A DNA stretch of 44,680 nt, taken from Ignavibacterium sp. GTDB taxonomy: Bacteria; Bacteroidota; Ignavibacteria; Ignavibacteriales; Ignavibacteriaceae. Made by a program: the position numbers and the translations under genes. The DNA is taken from NCBI GenBank assembly GCA_020354005.1, contig CP070637.1, forward strand, positions 2,585,654-2,630,333, read 5' to 3'. Positions 2,313-43,471 of this stretch are shown piece after piece; position 1 is the first letter of the stretch; the number at the start of each line of letters is the position of its first letter. The notes below the pieces were generated by a model. That model saw only the letters and a program-made list of their open reading frames with translations. It did no database searches and was not told the DNA's origin.

Positions 2313-2393
2313 ACACTGATAATGCAGATTGAGCAGATTTTCACAGATATTAATCAGCGAGGATCAGTTAAATCCGCATCATCTGCGTGCCAT
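2313..2393. repeat. Dispersed intergenic repeat of the AATCAGCG / ATCTGCG type
   Basis: The convergent gap contains degenerate units such as CTGATAATGCAGATTGAGCA, TTAATCAGCGAGGATCAG and ATCCGCATCATCTGCGTG. I recognise the style of short tandem, degenerate units (AATCAGCG, ATCTGCGT) as common between genes in Bacteroidota and relatives. The repeat runs into the 3' end of prmA and supplies its last codons. Confidence 0.5.
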
Positions 2394-3227
2394 TACAAGC
2401 ACAACCCATTCTTCCATCGATACAGATTCAATATGTTTAAAGCCAATTGATTGGTAATGGTTAATCACGTCCAATTCATCTTTATCCAGCAAACCAGCCA
2501 GAATAATAATTCCATCTGATTTAACTTTTTTATAAGTGTCTTCTGCAATTAAAATTAAAATATTTTTCTGGATGTTTGCTGCAATAATGTCAAAGTCTTC
2601 TTCTTTTATAGAATTGATGGTTCCGTTAATAATATTAATTCTTTCTTCAACATTATTTAGTTTAGAATTTTCCAGACAGTTCTCATAACAGCCCTCATCA
2701 TTATCAACAGCAACCGCAAATGATGCACCAAGATTTAATGCGGCGATTGAAAGAATGCCTGTACCCGATCCGACATCAAGAATTTTCATTCCCGGCTTGA
2801 TATATTTTTCAATCATCTGAATGACTTGTTTTGTTGTTTGGTGATCACCTGTACCGAATGACATTTTGGGATCAATCGTAATTACAATCTCTTCGGGTTT
2901 TGCTTTATAATTTTTAAATGTTGGCTTAACAAGAATGCGATCTGAAACTTTAATGACTTCCCTGCTCTTCTCCCATAGCTCATTCCAATTCTTATCTTCA
3001 GTAACTTCGCTGCTTAAAGAGTAACTCTCTATTATACTTTGGGTTTTAAGAATATTTAATAAATCTGAAATTGCATCATCATTCACTTTGGATCCATCAT
3101 CAGCATAAGCAATTAAAAAATCCTTTTCTTCGTTGATACCGGTAATATCCAGTTCCCATAATAGACCAGAAATTAAATCCGGCTGATATGGTGTTGAATG
3201 AATTCTGAATGCGGTAAATTTTTTCAA
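2379..3227 (-). CDS. prmA: Ribosomal protein L11 methyltransferase PrmA
   Basis: A 282-residue SAM-dependent methyltransferase that methylates ribosomal protein L11. The N-terminal half is the L11-recognition part; the C-terminal half is a Rossmann methyltransferase with the SAM motif LDVGSGTGILSIAALNLGA, the acidic residue in AVDNDEGC, and AANIQKNIL in the place of the usual N-x-x-x-N-P loop. FGTGDHQTTK before the SAM motif is also typical. It is the last gene of the purM / TatD-rSAM / dacB run, beginning 9 bases after the dacB stop. The start is TTG at 3227 with no clear Shine-Dalgarno sequence, so reinitiation from dacB is likely. The last four residues (MARR) and stop are encoded by the dispersed repeat. 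Confidence 0.92.
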   Translation of the reverse strand: MKKFTAFRIHSTPYQPDLISGLLWELDITGINEEKDFLIAYADDGSKVNDDAISDLLNILKTQSIIESYSLSSEVTEDKNWNELWEKSREVIKVSDRILVKPTFKNYKAKPEEIVITIDPKMSFGTGDHQTTKQVIQMIEKYIKPGMKILDVGSGTGILSIAALNLGASFAVAVDNDEGCYENCLENSKLNNVEERINIINGTINSIKEEDFDIIAANIQKNILILIAEDTYKKVKSDGIIILAGLLDKDELDVINHYQSIGFKHIESVSMEEWVVLVMARR

Positions 3228-3236
3228 AGAGGTGGT

Positions 3237-4664
3237 TTATTTATAATTTACTAAAATATTACAAATCTCATCCTGCAAAACCCTGGCTACACGAGTCTTT
3301 TCAACAAAGTTTTGCATCAGAATTGAGAAGACAAGAAGATGGTCGTTTAGAGTTGTAACATAACCGGAAAGTGTACTGACACCATTAAGTGTCCCGGTCT
3401 TGGCATGTACCCTTCCTTCGGCATCGGTATCAATCATCCTTTTTTCAAGCGTACCATCCACTCCGCCTATTGCCAGTGAATTATAAAACCGGTTGAACTC
3501 CGGATGATTGTACATATAAATTAGTATTTCGACTAACAATTCAGCGCTTACCAAATTATAACGTGAGACACCCGATCCATCTGCAAAGGAATATTTTTCA
3601 GGCTCTAATCCAATTGAATCAACAAGTTTTCTAATTGTCTCAATACCATTTTCGGCAATTGCAGGTGCACCTGAATCATTAAGTGCCAATGCGTATAATA
3701 GCATTTCTGTGCTCAGATTATCACTTTCTTTATTTACCTGCACGAGAACCGAATCAATTGATCTATGTATGGAATAAAGATAAACAGGATTAGCTGGCAA
3801 CTTTTTTACCTCCGTTATTCCATTAACAACAATTCCTTCTTTTTTAAGATGCTCTTTAAATAAGGTTAAAAAATATTTTTCCGGCTCCAGCAAACTTAAC
3901 TTTTCAGTGTGATCAGAAGAATCAATGTATTCGCCACGACGAACCTCACCTTCTACGATGATTGTATTTTTTCTGTTCAGCCAGTCCCGGTCAATTTTGA
4001 GATCATTAAGTTCTCTTGCGGGAACTGTTTTAGTTCGATTATCAACAATAACATATTCAGTTTCAGGTGTTAAAATTATGTTAGCCTGCGAATCGATTTC
4101 AGTCCCTTCAACAAAAACCTCAATTGAATTATCATTAATATTCAAAGCACTTAAATGAGGTGCACCGGGATCGGGTTCATCATCCCACATCCAGCCTTCT
4201 CCCCAATAAATTGAATCCTTTATCGATATATCGGCGTAGATATTGTTTGAGATATATTTTATACCGAGAGACTTTACTATTTGCACTAAAGAATCAAGAT
4301 CATCAGTTGTAAATTCCGGATCAAGTCCGCCTAGAAGGTAGAGATCCCCATACAAGGTATCACCTTCTATAACTCCAGTGTGATAAAGCGATGTCAAAAA
4401 ATTATAGGAAGAATCTAAATAAATTATTGCGGCTGCAGAAGTAAGCAGCTTCATGTTAGATGCCGGATGCAATAATAATTTATCATTATTCCGGAATAAT
4501 GATTCTCCCTCGGTTAAATCATAAACTGAAGCAGCAACTTGAGATTGTTCAAAGAAGTCGTCATTGATAATCTGAAACAAGTCATCATGCAGCTTAATAA
4601 TATTGCTTTGTGCAAACAAACAGCCGGATGATAATAGAAGAAAAATAAGTTTTATTAATTGCAT
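3237..4664 (-). CDS. D-alanyl-D-alanine carboxypeptidase/endopeptidase, PBP4 type (peptidase S13)
   Basis: A 475-residue low-molecular-weight penicillin-binding protein that trims or cuts peptidoglycan cross-links in the periplasm. A signal peptide is visible (MQLIKLIFLLLSSGCLFAQ). The three active-site motifs are intact: S69-N-M-K72 in HPASNMK, S314-D-N316, and K422-T-G in HAKTGTLNG. The long insertion between the first two motifs is as in the S13/DacB family, and the length is normal. A Cys at residue 15 sits in SSGC inside the signal region, so a lipoprotein cannot be fully excluded, but FAQ/S cleavage looks better. It lies between the TatD-rSAM fusion and prmA on the same strand, 9 bases ahead of prmA; no functional link to those genes is evident. 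Confidence 0.9.
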   Translation of the reverse strand: MQLIKLIFLLLSSGCLFAQSNIIKLHDDLFQIINDDFFEQSQVAASVYDLTEGESLFRNNDKLLLHPASNMKLLTSAAAIIYLDSSYNFLTSLYHTGVIEGDTLYGDLYLLGGLDPEFTTDDLDSLVQIVKSLGIKYISNNIYADISIKDSIYWGEGWMWDDEPDPGAPHLSALNINDNSIEVFVEGTEIDSQANIILTPETEYVIVDNRTKTVPARELNDLKIDRDWLNRKNTIIVEGEVRRGEYIDSSDHTEKLSLLEPEKYFLTLFKEHLKKEGIVVNGITEVKKLPANPVYLYSIHRSIDSVLVQVNKESDNLSTEMLLYALALNDSGAPAIAENGIETIRKLVDSIGLEPEKYSFADGSGVSRYNLVSAELLVEILIYMYNHPEFNRFYNSLAIGGVDGTLEKRMIDTDAEGRVHAKTGTLNGVSTLSGYVTTLNDHLLVFSILMQNFVEKTRVARVLQDEICNILVNYK

Positions 4665-4753: not shown

Positions 4754-6115
4754 TTAGAAATAAGGTCTGATTCTAAACTCAGCACCTATCTTTTCTTCAA
4801 CTGTCTGTCTTGCTTTTTCCACATCCACCTCATCCATAGACAATATGGTCATCACAACCTTGTTAACATAATCTTTTACCTTCTTTGCAAAATCGATCAT
4901 TTCATTAAACATTCTCCTTTCAAGTCCCATAAGCTCAGCATACTGTTTGGGATTGAAAGAATTTAAACTTATGGATACCTCATCAATTAAACCGCTGCAT
5001 TCTGGAGCGATGTTTCTTTTATTAATAAAACTACCATGTCCATTTGTATTAAGTCTAGTAGTACCACCTCTGTTTTTAACATACTTCGAAATCTGTTTAA
5101 CTACATCCCATCTGATTGTGGGTTCGCCATAACCGCAATAAACAATTTCTTTATAGGCTTTTGGGTTACCAATTTCTAACATATATACTTCTGCATCGGG
5201 TTCTTCTGATCTTTCCATTCCCAAATCGTACCCTCTTAAAATCGGATCTGTTCTTCTTCTGCAAAAGGAACAATGAGAATTACACCTGTTAGTTATATTA
5301 ACATAAAGCGAATTGCCAATCTTGTAGGTTAAAGCCTTTTTAGGTCTACTCCCAATACCAAAAGTTCTAAATGTATTAAACGATGTAATTCTACCCACTT
5401 CCTCAACACTAAGCTCCTGAACTTCTGCAATCTTCTCTGCTACATACTTAACATAGGAAGGTTCATTCCTTTTACCTCTGAATGGTTCCGGTGTAAGAAA
5501 TGGTGAATCGGTTTCCAATAAGAGCTGATCAATTCGTATACACTTAAGTAACTCCCTGAGATCATCAGCATTTTTGAATGTTATATTTCCTGTAAAGGAG
5601 ATCATGTAGCCCATATGAACAAGCTCAATAGCATTTTTTAACGAGCTGTTAAAGCAATGAAACTGTGCTTTCAATCCCGATCCGCAATAGCTATTAATAA
5701 TTTCCATTAAATCATCATCGCTATCCCTGTTATGAACGATGATTGGTTTATCCAATTTTAAAGCGAGATCTATCTGGTCTTTAAAGGCTTGTATTTGTTT
5801 TTCCTTAGGTGAGTAATCGTAGCAGTAATCCAAACCGATTTCTCCAATGGCAACAATTTTATCATTTGCTGCTAAAGCTTCTATCTTTTCGATTAACGAT
5901 GAGTCCCAATCTTTTGTTTCATGAGGATGAATCCCGACAGCACCATAAATCATATCATATTTTTCAGTCATCGCAATAACTTCCTGCGCAGTTTCTAAAT
6001 CTGTTGCAGGAACTATTATGTAATCTACACCAGCGTCTTTAGCTCTCTGAATTATTTCATCAAGATCATCCTTGAAGTTAGGATAGAATAAATGTGCGTG
6101 GGTATCTATTAACAT
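4754..6115 (-). CDS. TatD-family metal-dependent nuclease fused to a compact radical SAM domain
   Basis: A 453-residue two-domain protein. Residues 1 to about 255 are a complete TatD-type hydrolase: H6-x-H8 in DTHAHLF, GEIGLDY, IVHNRDSDDD, FHCFN and LLLETDSPFL supply the metal ligands. Residues about 265-453 form a short radical SAM domain with the [4Fe-4S] motif C278-NSH-C282-SF-C285 and a GYGEPT segment matching the GGE SAM-binding motif, followed by RLNTNGHG and DEVSISLNS strands. Radical SAM proteins linked to TatD genes are a known family (TatD-linked rSAM); here both are one uninterrupted frame. The radical SAM reaction is not known to me. The gene follows purM by 33 bases on the same strand. 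TatD alone would suggest 3'-5' exonuclease or DNA repair, but I would not assume that for the fusion. Confidence 0.88.
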   Translation of the reverse strand: MLIDTHAHLFYPNFKDDLDEIIQRAKDAGVDYIIVPATDLETAQEVIAMTEKYDMIYGAVGIHPHETKDWDSSLIEKIEALAANDKIVAIGEIGLDYCYDYSPKEKQIQAFKDQIDLALKLDKPIIVHNRDSDDDLMEIINSYCGSGLKAQFHCFNSSLKNAIELVHMGYMISFTGNITFKNADDLRELLKCIRIDQLLLETDSPFLTPEPFRGKRNEPSYVKYVAEKIAEVQELSVEEVGRITSFNTFRTFGIGSRPKKALTYKIGNSLYVNITNRCNSHCSFCRRRTDPILRGYDLGMERSEEPDAEVYMLEIGNPKAYKEIVYCGYGEPTIRWDVVKQISKYVKNRGGTTRLNTNGHGSFINKRNIAPECSGLIDEVSISLNSFNPKQYAELMGLERRMFNEMIDFAKKVKDYVNKVVMTILSMDEVDVEKARQTVEEKIGAEFRIRPYF

Positions 6116-6148: not shown

Positions 6149-7144
6149 TTACTCTACTTCCCCAACAACGATTGCATGTTCTTTCTGAGAAATGGCCACT
6201 TGCATTGTCATCTCTTCTTGCTCTTGCGGAACTACTGCTATTAATCCAATGCCTACATTAAATACTTTCCGCATTTCTTCGTTACTTATACCGCCGGTTT
6301 CCTGAATCAGTTTGAAGATAGGAGGAATATCCCAGTTTCCCCAATGAATTTTAATTTTTAATCCATCGGGTATTACTCTCTTTGTGTTGCCAATAATGCC
6401 TCCGCCCGTTATATGAGAGAATGCTTTTACATCGGTATTTTCTTTTAACTCACGAATAAGTTTAAGATATGATTTATGAACTCTTAATAGTTCTTTTCCC
6501 AATGTTTTGTTTAACAAATCAATATGATCGTTTAGATTATAACTGTTTTGCAGTACTTTTCTAACAAGAGAATAACCATTTGTATGAAGACCGTTTGATA
6601 AAAAGCCAATTAGTAAATCACCAGCATGGATGTTATTTCCTGTAAGGACTCCCTCCCTCTCAACAGCGCCAACAATGGTACCTGATAAATCATAATCCCT
6701 TTTGGTGTAAATACCGGGCATCTCTGCTGTCTCACCACCAATCAATACACAATCATTTGCAATACAAGCGATAGAAAAGCCTTTAACTACTTCGGATGCA
6801 ACCTCCGGATCAAGTTTTCCAAACGCCATATAATCTAAGAAGAACAAAGGTTCTGCTCCGCACACGGCAATATCATTTACACAGTGATTCACAAGATCCT
6901 GTCCGATAGTATCATGTTTATTCAATTCAACAGCAATTTTTAGCTTGGTTCCTACACCATCTGTACTGGATACAAGCACCGGCTGAGTGTATTTGTCCTT
7001 ATCAAAATTAAACAAGCCACTAAAATGCCCTACTTCTGATAGAACATTTTTATTAAATGTTGATTTTGCATAGTCCTTTATACGGTTAACAGTATCTTCG
7101 CCAGCTAAAATATCTACACCAGATGACTTGTAAGTATCATTCAA
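6149..7144 (-). CDS. purM: Phosphoribosylformylglycinamidine cyclo-ligase (AIR synthetase)
   Basis: A 331-residue enzyme of purine synthesis that closes the imidazole ring of FGAM with ATP to give AIR. The N-terminus YKSSGVDILAGEDTV and the glycine-rich TDGVGTKLKIA are family signatures, as are VLIGGETAEMPG, HTNGYSLVRK and FSHITGGGIIGN. The length is normal. The start is TTG at 7144; the nearby ATG is out of frame, and the reading MNDTYKSSGVD matches where PurM proteins begin. No other pur gene is visible. It heads the run purM, TatD-rSAM, dacB, prmA and shares its 242-base upstream region with the divergent hrcA. Confidence 0.93.
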   Translation of the reverse strand: MNDTYKSSGVDILAGEDTVNRIKDYAKSTFNKNVLSEVGHFSGLFNFDKDKYTQPVLVSSTDGVGTKLKIAVELNKHDTIGQDLVNHCVNDIAVCGAEPLFFLDYMAFGKLDPEVASEVVKGFSIACIANDCVLIGGETAEMPGIYTKRDYDLSGTIVGAVEREGVLTGNNIHAGDLLIGFLSNGLHTNGYSLVRKVLQNSYNLNDHIDLLNKTLGKELLRVHKSYLKLIRELKENTDVKAFSHITGGGIIGNTKRVIPDGLKIKIHWGNWDIPPIFKLIQETGGISNEEMRKVFNVGIGLIAVVPQEQEEMTMQVAISQKEHAIVVGEVE

Positions 7145-42145: not shown

Positions 42146-43471
42146 ATGCCCGACACAGTTGCATTACATACCATTGGCTGTAAATTAAACTTCTCAGAAA
42201 CATCTACTATTGGCAATCAATTTCTGTTAAATGGATATAATCTAGTACCACTTGATAGCAGTGCAGATATATATGTTTTTAATACCTGCACAGTTACTGA
42301 AAATGCAGAAAGAGATTGCAGACAATTAATTCGAAAAGCACTGAGACGAAATCCAAATGCATATATAATTGTTACCGGATGTTACGCTCAGTTAAGACCA
42401 GATGAGATTGCCGGAATAGAAGGTGTGGATGCTGTTCTGGGAAGCAACGAAAAATTTCAGTTATTTTCCCTCCTGAATAATTTCAATAGTTCCAATATTG
42501 CTTGTGTTCATGTCGGCTCCTTAGATGATGTAAATGAATTTGGTGATGCACATTCCACCGATGCGGACAGCAGAACTAGAGCATATTTTAAGATACAGGA
42601 CGGGTGCGATTATAATTGTACATTCTGTACAATTCCTCTTGCCAGAGGTACCAGCAGAAGCATGGATCCAAACAAAGCTGTTGAAGAATTCAGAAAACTT
42701 GTTGAAGATGGATATAAGGAGATTATTCTGACTGGCGTTAATGTCGGTGACTATGGGAAGAAATATAATGTGGAGTTTTATGATCTTCTTTTAAAACTAA
42801 TACAGGTTGAAGGAGAATTTAGAATTAGGATTAGTTCTATCGAACCAAACTTATTATCTGATGGTATTATAGATTTAATTGCAGAAGAAGACAAAATTTG
42901 CAACCACTTACATATTCCTCTCCAAAGCGGGAGTCCTGAAATTTTAAATTCTATGCAAAGAAGATACACTATAAAAGATTATGAAAATGTAATTATGCAA
43001 GCTCACGAGAAAATTATTGATCTTGGAATTGGAGTAGATATAATTGTCGGCTTCCCGGGTGAAACTGAAAATCACTTTATAGAAACTCATAATTTCCTTC
43101 GTGACCTTCCAATTTCATATCTGCACGTTTTTACTTACTCAGAGCGGCCCGATACAAAGGCTATATATTTACCCAACATGGTTAAGATAAAAGAAAGAAA
43201 AAGACGAAACAAAATCCTCAGGATATTAAGCGAGAAAAAGAAGCGTAGCTTTTATGAAAATATGGTGGGCAAAATTTCAACTGTATTATTTGAAGATGCA
43301 GCCATAGATGAGATTATGAAAGGATTTACTTCAAATTATATAAGAATAATTAATGATTATGATAAATCTGTTATTAATAAGCTGGAAGATATTGAAATAA
43401 CTGGTTTAACAAATGATGGTTTTTGTACAGGTAGACTGATGGATACTAAATATTCAATTGACATAGTCTAA
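42146..43471 (+). CDS. mtaB: tRNA t6A37 methylthiotransferase MtaB
   Basis: A 441-residue radical SAM enzyme that converts t6A37 to ms2t6A37 in tRNAs decoding ANN codons. N-terminal methylthiotransferase domain with three cysteines in IGC12KLNFSE, FNTCTV and VTGCYAQ; radical SAM cluster C154-DYN-C158-TF-C161 in QDGCDYNCTFC; HLHIPLQSGSPEIL; and a TRAM-like C-terminal RNA-binding segment. GCKLNFSET is what separates MtaB from MiaB and RimO. It is preceded by a repeat element and followed 27 bases later by the DUF5683-like gene. Confidence 0.92.
   Translation: MPDTVALHTIGCKLNFSETSTIGNQFLLNGYNLVPLDSSADIYVFNTCTVTENAERDCRQLIRKALRRNPNAYIIVTGCYAQLRPDEIAGIEGVDAVLGSNEKFQLFSLLNNFNSSNIACVHVGSLDDVNEFGDAHSTDADSRTRAYFKIQDGCDYNCTFCTIPLARGTSRSMDPNKAVEEFRKLVEDGYKEIILTGVNVGDYGKKYNVEFYDLLLKLIQVEGEFRIRISSIEPNLLSDGIIDLIAEEDKICNHLHIPLQSGSPEILNSMQRRYTIKDYENVIMQAHEKIIDLGIGVDIIVGFPGETENHFIETHNFLRDLPISYLHVFTYSERPDTKAIYLPNMVKIKERKRRNKILRILSEKKKRSFYENMVGKISTVLFEDAAIDEIMKGFTSNYIRIINDYDKSVINKLEDIEITGLTNDGFCTGRLMDTKYSIDIV

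Follow-up and report, generated by a model that had tools for sequence, protein, structure and literature searches.

The question raised by this locus is whether a TatD-family nuclease and a radical SAM enzyme that share one reading frame form a genuine two-domain protein and, if so, whether both halves work on the same substrate. The frame lies on the minus strand at positions 4754..6115 of the window, the 44,680-nucleotide stretch of Ignavibacterium sp. DNA analyzed here, and runs from an ATG start to a stop codon at 4754-4756, encoding 453 amino acids plus the stop; the plus-strand reading of the same interval contains many stops. In NCBIfam, residues 2-253 matched TIGR00010, the YcfH/YabD-type TatD model, with 282.3 bits (cut-off 206), and residues 262-452 matched TIGR04038 with 203.6 bits (cut-off 129.7) over model positions 2-191 of 192. 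The Pfam models TatD_DNase (PF01026; residues 3-253, 284.9 vs 27 bits) and Radical_SAM (PF04055; residues 272-440, 69.1 vs 29.5 bits) agreed. With both halves above curated cut-offs, the original prediction of a TatD nuclease and a radical SAM enzyme in one frame was borne out, and on these matches the window protein is almost certainly a genuine fusion of a TIGR00010-type TatD with a member of TIGR04038. The host genome is a single contig of 2.8 Mb, 80% complete, in which a second TatD above the Pfam cut-off was not found, the next match scoring 19.9 bits, below the cut-off. Another radical SAM domain is encoded at 42593-43099 of the window (plus strand) within an ORF of 444 amino acids, and is the best of the 27 PF04055 matches in the genome.

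In order to see how widely the fusion occurs, relatives were gathered as named loci, the best 80 of at least 591 ranked by likeness to the radical SAM half of the window protein. Among these best 80 of at least 591, 74 are fused, five are stand-alone and one is cut off (L056), a share of fused forms that is biased upward because the 80 loci are those most like the window. The fused loci among them come from Ignavibacteria and their kin, Nitrospirota, Nitrospinota, Planctomycetota, Acidobacteriota, Zixibacteria, Thermodesulfobacteriota and others. In the order and class surveys, where the fused state was inferred from frame length and position rather than from each sequence, the main TatD lay in a frame of at least 452 amino acids in 56 of the 59 genomes sampled from the order, and the radical SAM domain was present in 62 of 149 genomes of the class, 60 of these in frames of at least 425 amino acids. 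The three exceptions in the order are cut at a contig end (G225) or begin at base 9 of their contigs (G219 and G203), and the two in the class (G250 and G303) are truncated by the ends of their contigs; a further TatD above the cut-off occurred in nine of the 59 order genomes. Across 198 genomes of the phylum, TIGR04038 exceeded its cut-off in 42, with 31 in frames of 453-605 amino acids and 11 stand-alone, all of the latter from family f20, probably Chlorobiaceae; many weaker matches fell under the cut-off, and the loose threshold also caught 13 of 14 control genomes, one of them over the cut-off. In the class survey the radical SAM match of the control genome of Methanosarcina acetivorans also exceeded the cut-off.

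That two separate genes were joined by a sequencing or assembly error, one of the outcomes that the original prediction had named as speaking against it, has negligible probability: nothing was found in its favor, and the long single frame recurs in 56/59 genomes of the order, in 60 of the 62 radical SAM-positive genomes of the class and in 74/80 named loci (best of at least 591). Because the one-frame fusion recurs across the order, the class and many other phyla, we rejected an artefact; the fusion is real, old and common to bacteria of many phyla. Selenocysteine insertion or other recoding was also rejected, as the single TGA in two stand-alone matches (L010 and L012) is the natural stop ending the frame. 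A search for viral carriage returned 18 pattern matches and three short relatives, none with a radical SAM or TatD frame over the thresholds. NrdD, taken as a marker of anaerobic life, was found in one of the 149 class genomes and is therefore uninformative about a link to oxygen.

Residue conservation was examined in an alignment of 69 fused proteins, comprising the window protein and 68 of the 74 fused named loci; the other six (L060, L065, L068, L081, L096 and L117) were left out because the start-motif pattern missed them. The N-terminal half (residues 1-253; 5357..6115, minus strand) belongs to Group II of the TatD nucleases on the basis of TIGR00010, Pfam and a Foldseek match to Staphylococcus aureus TatD 6l25. 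It carries the HxH motif as H6-A-H8 (6092..6100, minus strand) in the window sequence and in the alignment of fused proteins, and H6, H8, E92, H128, H153 and D203 are invariant in all 69. We take these six residues to be the TatD metal site, as in TatD structures, the HxH pair being described in PMC10085689; the full metal site proposed earlier for the N-terminal part is thus present and conserved. Against 6l25 the half gave a TMt of 0.96 with 42% identity in Foldseek, and a Z score of 40.7 (rmsd 1.2, 254 residues aligned, 41% identity) in VIA-align. It scored 78.3 bits against a cut-off of 230 for QatD (NF041926), the TatD of the Qat anti-phage system, and is not a member of that family. PMC10085689 describes the N-terminal HxH motif as defining Group II TatD, including Escherichia coli YcfH, and reports that YcfH acts as a 3'-exonuclease on single-stranded DNA and as an AP endonuclease on double-stranded DNA. 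On the strength of E. coli YcfH, 3'-5' exonuclease and AP endonuclease activity can be predicted for the TatD half of the window protein. E. coli TatD itself, which unlike the Group II YcfH belongs to Group I, digests single-stranded DNA and RNA and removes deaminated nucleotides, according to PMC4176340.

The C-terminal half (residues 264-453; 4757..5326, minus strand) has the expected features of the radical SAM superfamily, namely a CX3CX2C and a GGE-type motif in 63 of 63 fused and stand-alone members, a PF04055 match and a partial-barrel fold, and reductive cleavage of SAM is predicted for it from this membership. The cysteines C278-x3-C282-x2-C285 (5261..5284, minus strand), the expected [4Fe-4S] ligands for SAM binding, are invariant in 69/69 fused and in 63/63 fused plus stand-alone proteins. 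The same holds for the GxGE of G328-Y-G-E-P-T333 (5117..5134, minus strand), which we take to be the GGEP-type SAM motif, with G328, G330 and E331 unchanged throughout the 69. R450 (4766..4768, minus strand), the Arg of the last strand and a candidate substrate residue, is equally invariant in 69/69 and 63/63. In total, 17 residues of this half are invariant across the 63 members, among them Y264, Y271, R354, D378, Y392, F409 and R450. The complete but short domain that had been proposed, with C278, C282, C285 and GYGEPT, was found at exactly those positions, and the chain ends at a minimal core like that of pyruvate formate-lyase activating enzyme (PFL-AE), in agreement with the earlier remark that no extra domain is visible. 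An AlphaFold2 model of 192 amino acids (pLDDT 96.1, pTM 0.91) was compared with known folds using VIA-align; small gaps in Z between folds of this superfamily cannot single out a function, and a family missing from the VIA-align list of either half is not thereby excluded. PFL-AE 3c8f headed the list (Z 16.4, rmsd 2.7, 178 aligned), followed by NifB 6y1x (Z 16.2, rmsd 2.6, 175 aligned), viperin 5vsm (Z 15.0, rmsd 2.3, 169 aligned), TYW1 6djt (Z 14.4, rmsd 3.1, 172 aligned) and RlmN 3rf9 (Z 14.3, rmsd 2.7, 175 aligned).

Between the two halves lies a short linker (residues 254-263; 5327..5356, minus strand), and the gap from F252 to Y264 is 11-12 residues in 67 of the 69 fused proteins and 13 and 17 in the remaining two. 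Mean conservation in the 69 was lowest for the linker letters (0.46) and higher for TatD (0.59) and the radical SAM half (0.62). Mean pairwise identity was 0.518 for the radical SAM half vs 0.473 for TatD, and the radical SAM value was the higher in 1893 of 2346 pairs. In the comparison of the window gene with locus L041, dS was saturated, so dN alone was used, and it was 0.139 in each half. Sequence constraint on both halves is thus shown by these comparisons. The whole chain was modeled by AlphaFold2 with a pLDDT of 95.6 and a pTM of 0.88.

Separate forms of the two genes also exist. The co-occurrence of fused and split forms, proposed earlier as a check, was seen in part: of the five stand-alone named loci (best 80 of at least 591), two have TatD and radical SAM genes as direct neighbors and three do not. 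In L105, from an Elusimicrobia bin, the two frames are separated by one stop codon alone, and in L116 tatD lies directly upstream with 87 nt from the end of its frame to the start of the radical SAM gene. The tatD gene of L118 is 3.7 kb upstream of the stand-alone radical SAM gene, and TatD was not found in the stretch examined around that of L106 or L113. Among the family f20 genomes, TatD was absent from the flanks (up to 1.5 kb per side) of all 11 stand-alone loci and from seven larger regions, and the f20 proteins still score over the TIGR04038 cut-off. A tree of 63 chosen radical SAM sequences, six of them from f20, required four changes between fused and stand-alone states. In it, the six f20 sequences group with fused proteins of Geobacter and Malonomonas (clade support 100/99), and three of the four genes from Bacillota group with a fused protein from Zixibacteria (98/82); the remaining Bacillota gene, L106, falls in another part of the tree on a long branch, and its place is unsure. 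In a tree of TatD sequences, which included 46 of the 68 aligned fused loci, five further fused loci and the window, the TatDs of L146 and L154 (family f3, without radical SAM) nested within a fused clade (100/98), and because of this nesting the radical SAM half seems to have been lost in both. All six site residues are kept in these two and in all 23 TatDs checked. The existence of split neighbors and of stand-alone radical SAM genes far from TatD indicates that the halves are separable.

The surroundings of the f20 genes were read separately, with Pfam applied to genes of L128-L130 and the rest assigned by BLAST sharing. The seven larger regions hold eight radical SAM copies, five of which lie near probable ABC exporter pairs (the first copy of L124, at L124:2801-3412, and those of L127-L130); the exporters were assigned by reading the sequences, and the one in L129 is about 2 kb from the radical SAM gene. 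Homologues of HGD-D and NMT1-type importer genes also occur near the radical SAM gene in L127-L130, as does a BadF/BcrA-type ATPase in L127-L129, and no such cluster surrounds the remaining three copies. Presumably this cluster resembles that of the double-cubane cluster proteins; a literature search for such proteins encoded beside BadF and ABC genes found nothing on a TIGR04038 radical SAM protein. It is possible that these neighbors form a functional partner cluster of the stand-alone TIGR04038 proteins.

A different extension of TatD was observed in sister families of the same class. In 37 genomes of families f5, f6, f8, f10, f11, f12 and f50 (L131, L137, L139, L141, L142, L147, L149, L151, L152 and L161-L188), TatD lies in a frame of 474-674 amino acids without radical SAM; L189 (G290) is an ordinary single TatD outside the 37. 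In nine frames that were fully read, TatD ends at the usual LF/FF and is followed in frame by a hydrophobic, signal-peptide-like segment and a C-terminal half, and these nine form one clade in the TatD tree (98/98). The C-terminal half gave OMP_b-brl matches in three of the nine, and as these are weak and all below the cut-off, an outer-membrane barrel is taken as probable. The pattern was resolved in 32 of the 37 regions, each with a hydrophobic stretch; five regions missed the pattern, and with the out-of-register L171 set aside, 31 regions in register remain. In 23 of these 31, an ATG suitably placed to begin a signal peptide occurs 10-12 codons before the end of LF, compared with a Met at those positions in none of the 69 TatD-radical SAM proteins (Fisher p 3e-16, not corrected for kinship). 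The eight without it comprise every in-register f6 member (six), one from f50 and one from f10, the last having an ATG seven codons before the end of LF instead. The last TatD helix may therefore also serve as the beginning of a signal peptide, and both a nested start and a polyprotein cut by signal peptidase are possible.

The gene neighborhood was examined with one representative annotated per cluster. In the window, purM (6149..7144, minus strand; TIGR00878) lies 33 nt upstream of the fusion gene, and a PBP4-type D-Ala-D-Ala carboxypeptidase (3237..4664, minus strand; TIGR00666) and prmA for the ribosomal protein L11 methyltransferase (2379..3227, minus strand; NF001785, over cut-off) follow downstream. 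Among the 80 named loci (best of at least 591), purM homologues occur in 16, on the same strand and within 600 nt in 12; PBP4 homologues lie within 600 nt downstream in 18, prmA homologues are present in 15, metG is within 600 nt in 13, and upstream homologues of holB and ricT are found in nine and seven, respectively. In four loci, a frame that precedes holB is a candidate tmk. In planctomycetes, some of them anammox bacteria, trmD lies upstream with an L19-related gene (rplS) in between (L097, L102, L115 and L119), and ksgA is directly downstream in L112, L116 and L120; in L106 and L118 a single gene separates the radical SAM gene from a ksgA homologue downstream. In Bacillota the stand-alone radical SAM gene lies upstream of ksgA (L116:3842-4684 and L106:7595-8482), and in Bacillus the position upstream of ksgA is occupied by the 5S rRNA nuclease gene. 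Relatives of the fusion thus occupy housekeeping and information-processing positions (metG, ksgA and trmD). However, PMC3814617 ties yabD (= ycfH) to metG and ksgA, among others, and for this reason the metG/ksgA context may be that of TatD alone. A search for literature pairing TatD with an aminoacyl-tRNA deacylase found nothing relevant.

On the basis of these observations we propose, with a probability of roughly 0.35, that both halves act on a shared nucleic-acid or nucleotide substrate. The N-terminal half would be the housekeeping YcfH/YabD-type TatD of the organism, a metal-dependent phosphodiesterase expected to incise DNA at AP sites and to shorten single-stranded DNA or RNA from the 3' end. 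In the C-terminal half, C278, C282 and C285 would hold a [4Fe-4S] cluster that cleaves SAM to a 5'-deoxyadenosyl radical, and this radical would abstract a hydrogen atom from a substrate bound by invariant residues such as R450, R354, D378 and Y392, the roles of these residues being a guess. With the near-fixed spacing between them, the two halves could serve end clean-up, repair or RNA maturation on one and the same substrate, the sharing again being a guess. We know of no measured reaction for any TIGR04038 member. Joint action is favored by the nearly constant length of the linker and by the long persistence of the fusion, and the earlier claim that the two activities work together, supported by the 11-12 residue linker in 67/69, the confident whole-chain model and the neighbors in L105 and L116, is supported and not proved. 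The accompanying suggestion that TatD may supply substrate binding is not supported, because the radical SAM invariants do not depend on the presence of TatD: stand-alone proteins without TatD in their flanks keep all 17, including R450, and TatD keeps its six site residues in L146 and L154, where the radical SAM half is apparently lost.

Similar weight goes to the reading that the halves do unrelated jobs, the radical SAM half having a small-molecule or protein substrate of its own and having been joined to TatD as neighboring genes of a housekeeping operon. It draws on the stand-alone relatives in other clusters, with no TatD in the flanks (up to 1.5 kb per side) of any of the 11 f20 loci or in the seven larger regions and with five of the eight f20 copies near probable ABC exporters, those of L127-L130 also near HGD-D and NMT1-type genes; on the 17 invariant residues common to fused and stand-alone forms; and on the four changes of state in the tree, together with the persistence of TatD where radical SAM seems lost. 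A linker so nearly constant, a fusion kept over many phyla with both halves constrained, and the directly adjoining genes of L105 and L116 speak for the shared substrate instead, against which it counts in turn that the context may be TatD's alone and the named-locus sample favors fused forms, that f20 proteins lie far from TatD and L146 and L154 seem to have kept TatD without its partner, and that the minimal radical SAM half shows no nucleic-acid-binding domain. A special case of the shared substrate, in which a tRNA or rRNA is trimmed at its 3' end by TatD and modified at a nucleotide by the radical SAM half, appears rather unlikely; metG, ksgA, trmD and rplS beside relatives, digestion of RNA by E. 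coli TatD (PMC4176340) and the fold matches to TYW1 and RlmN agree with it, but no RNA-binding domain is present, the gene context may again be TatD's alone, and PFL-AE and NifB both outscore TYW1 and RlmN, the differences between folds being small. A role for the radical SAM half like that of PFL-AE, as an activase or in peptide modification, is very unlikely: PFL-AE 3c8f tops the fold list, and a large substrate would fit well with an open core, but NifB is tied with it, the half reaches 22.3 of the 231.75 bits required by the PFL-AE model, and no glycyl-radical enzyme was seen among the annotated neighbor genes, which are part of all neighbors.

The named family to which the window protein belongs had been correctly anticipated, as a TatD-linked radical SAM family is already known as TIGR04038 (tatD_link_rSAM), described in NCBIfam as "TatD family nuclease-associated radical SAM protein". 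A literature search, in which relevance was partly judged by title, found no paper naming TIGR04038, TIGR04100 or tatD_link_rSAM or describing a TatD-radical SAM pair, and the window protein adds a member to a family that is functionally uncharacterized. Because the fused nuclease has relatives with measured activities, the substrate class of the radical SAM half is a testable guess, and solving one fused member would annotate many genomes (56/59 of the order, 60/149 of the class and several other phyla). A long shot within the shared-substrate proposal is a widespread, unrecognized repair enzyme, mainly of bacteria presumed to live at low oxygen, in which the radical SAM half would reverse or remove a damaged nucleotide and TatD would trim or incise the same strand; it would then join spore photoproduct lyase as a second type of radical SAM enzyme that repairs nucleic acids, and would take the place of the housekeeping TatD in many phyla.

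Among known systems, no difference was found between the radical SAM half of the window protein and TIGR04038, and the fused form is also found in 74/80 named loci (best of at least 591). The TatD association of that family, adjacent or fused, was found for the window protein and not seen for the stand-alone f20 members. TIGR04100 (rSAM_pair_X) gives a near full-length match of 156.2 bits, which is under its cut-off of 262, and the half is not a member. PFL-AE, NifB and viperin share the minimal radical SAM core fold; however, identity in the fold alignments is 12-20%, and the half falls below the NCBIfam cut-offs for PFLA (TIGR02493, 22.3 vs 231.75 bits) and viperin, so that it does not belong to the PFL-AE family. 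Spore photoproduct lyase ties radical SAM chemistry to DNA maintenance but belongs to another family and is not known to have a nuclease domain; the fusion might work similarly, which we offer as a lead only. The closest likeness of the N-terminal half is to the YcfH/YabD-type TatDs (S. aureus 6l25/2gzx and E. coli YcfH 1yix), with which it shares HxH and the six site residues and whose association with metG or ksgA recurs beside relatives of the fusion. The window protein differs from them by its extra C-terminal radical SAM domain, and its gene by having purM, PBP4 and prmA as its own neighbors.
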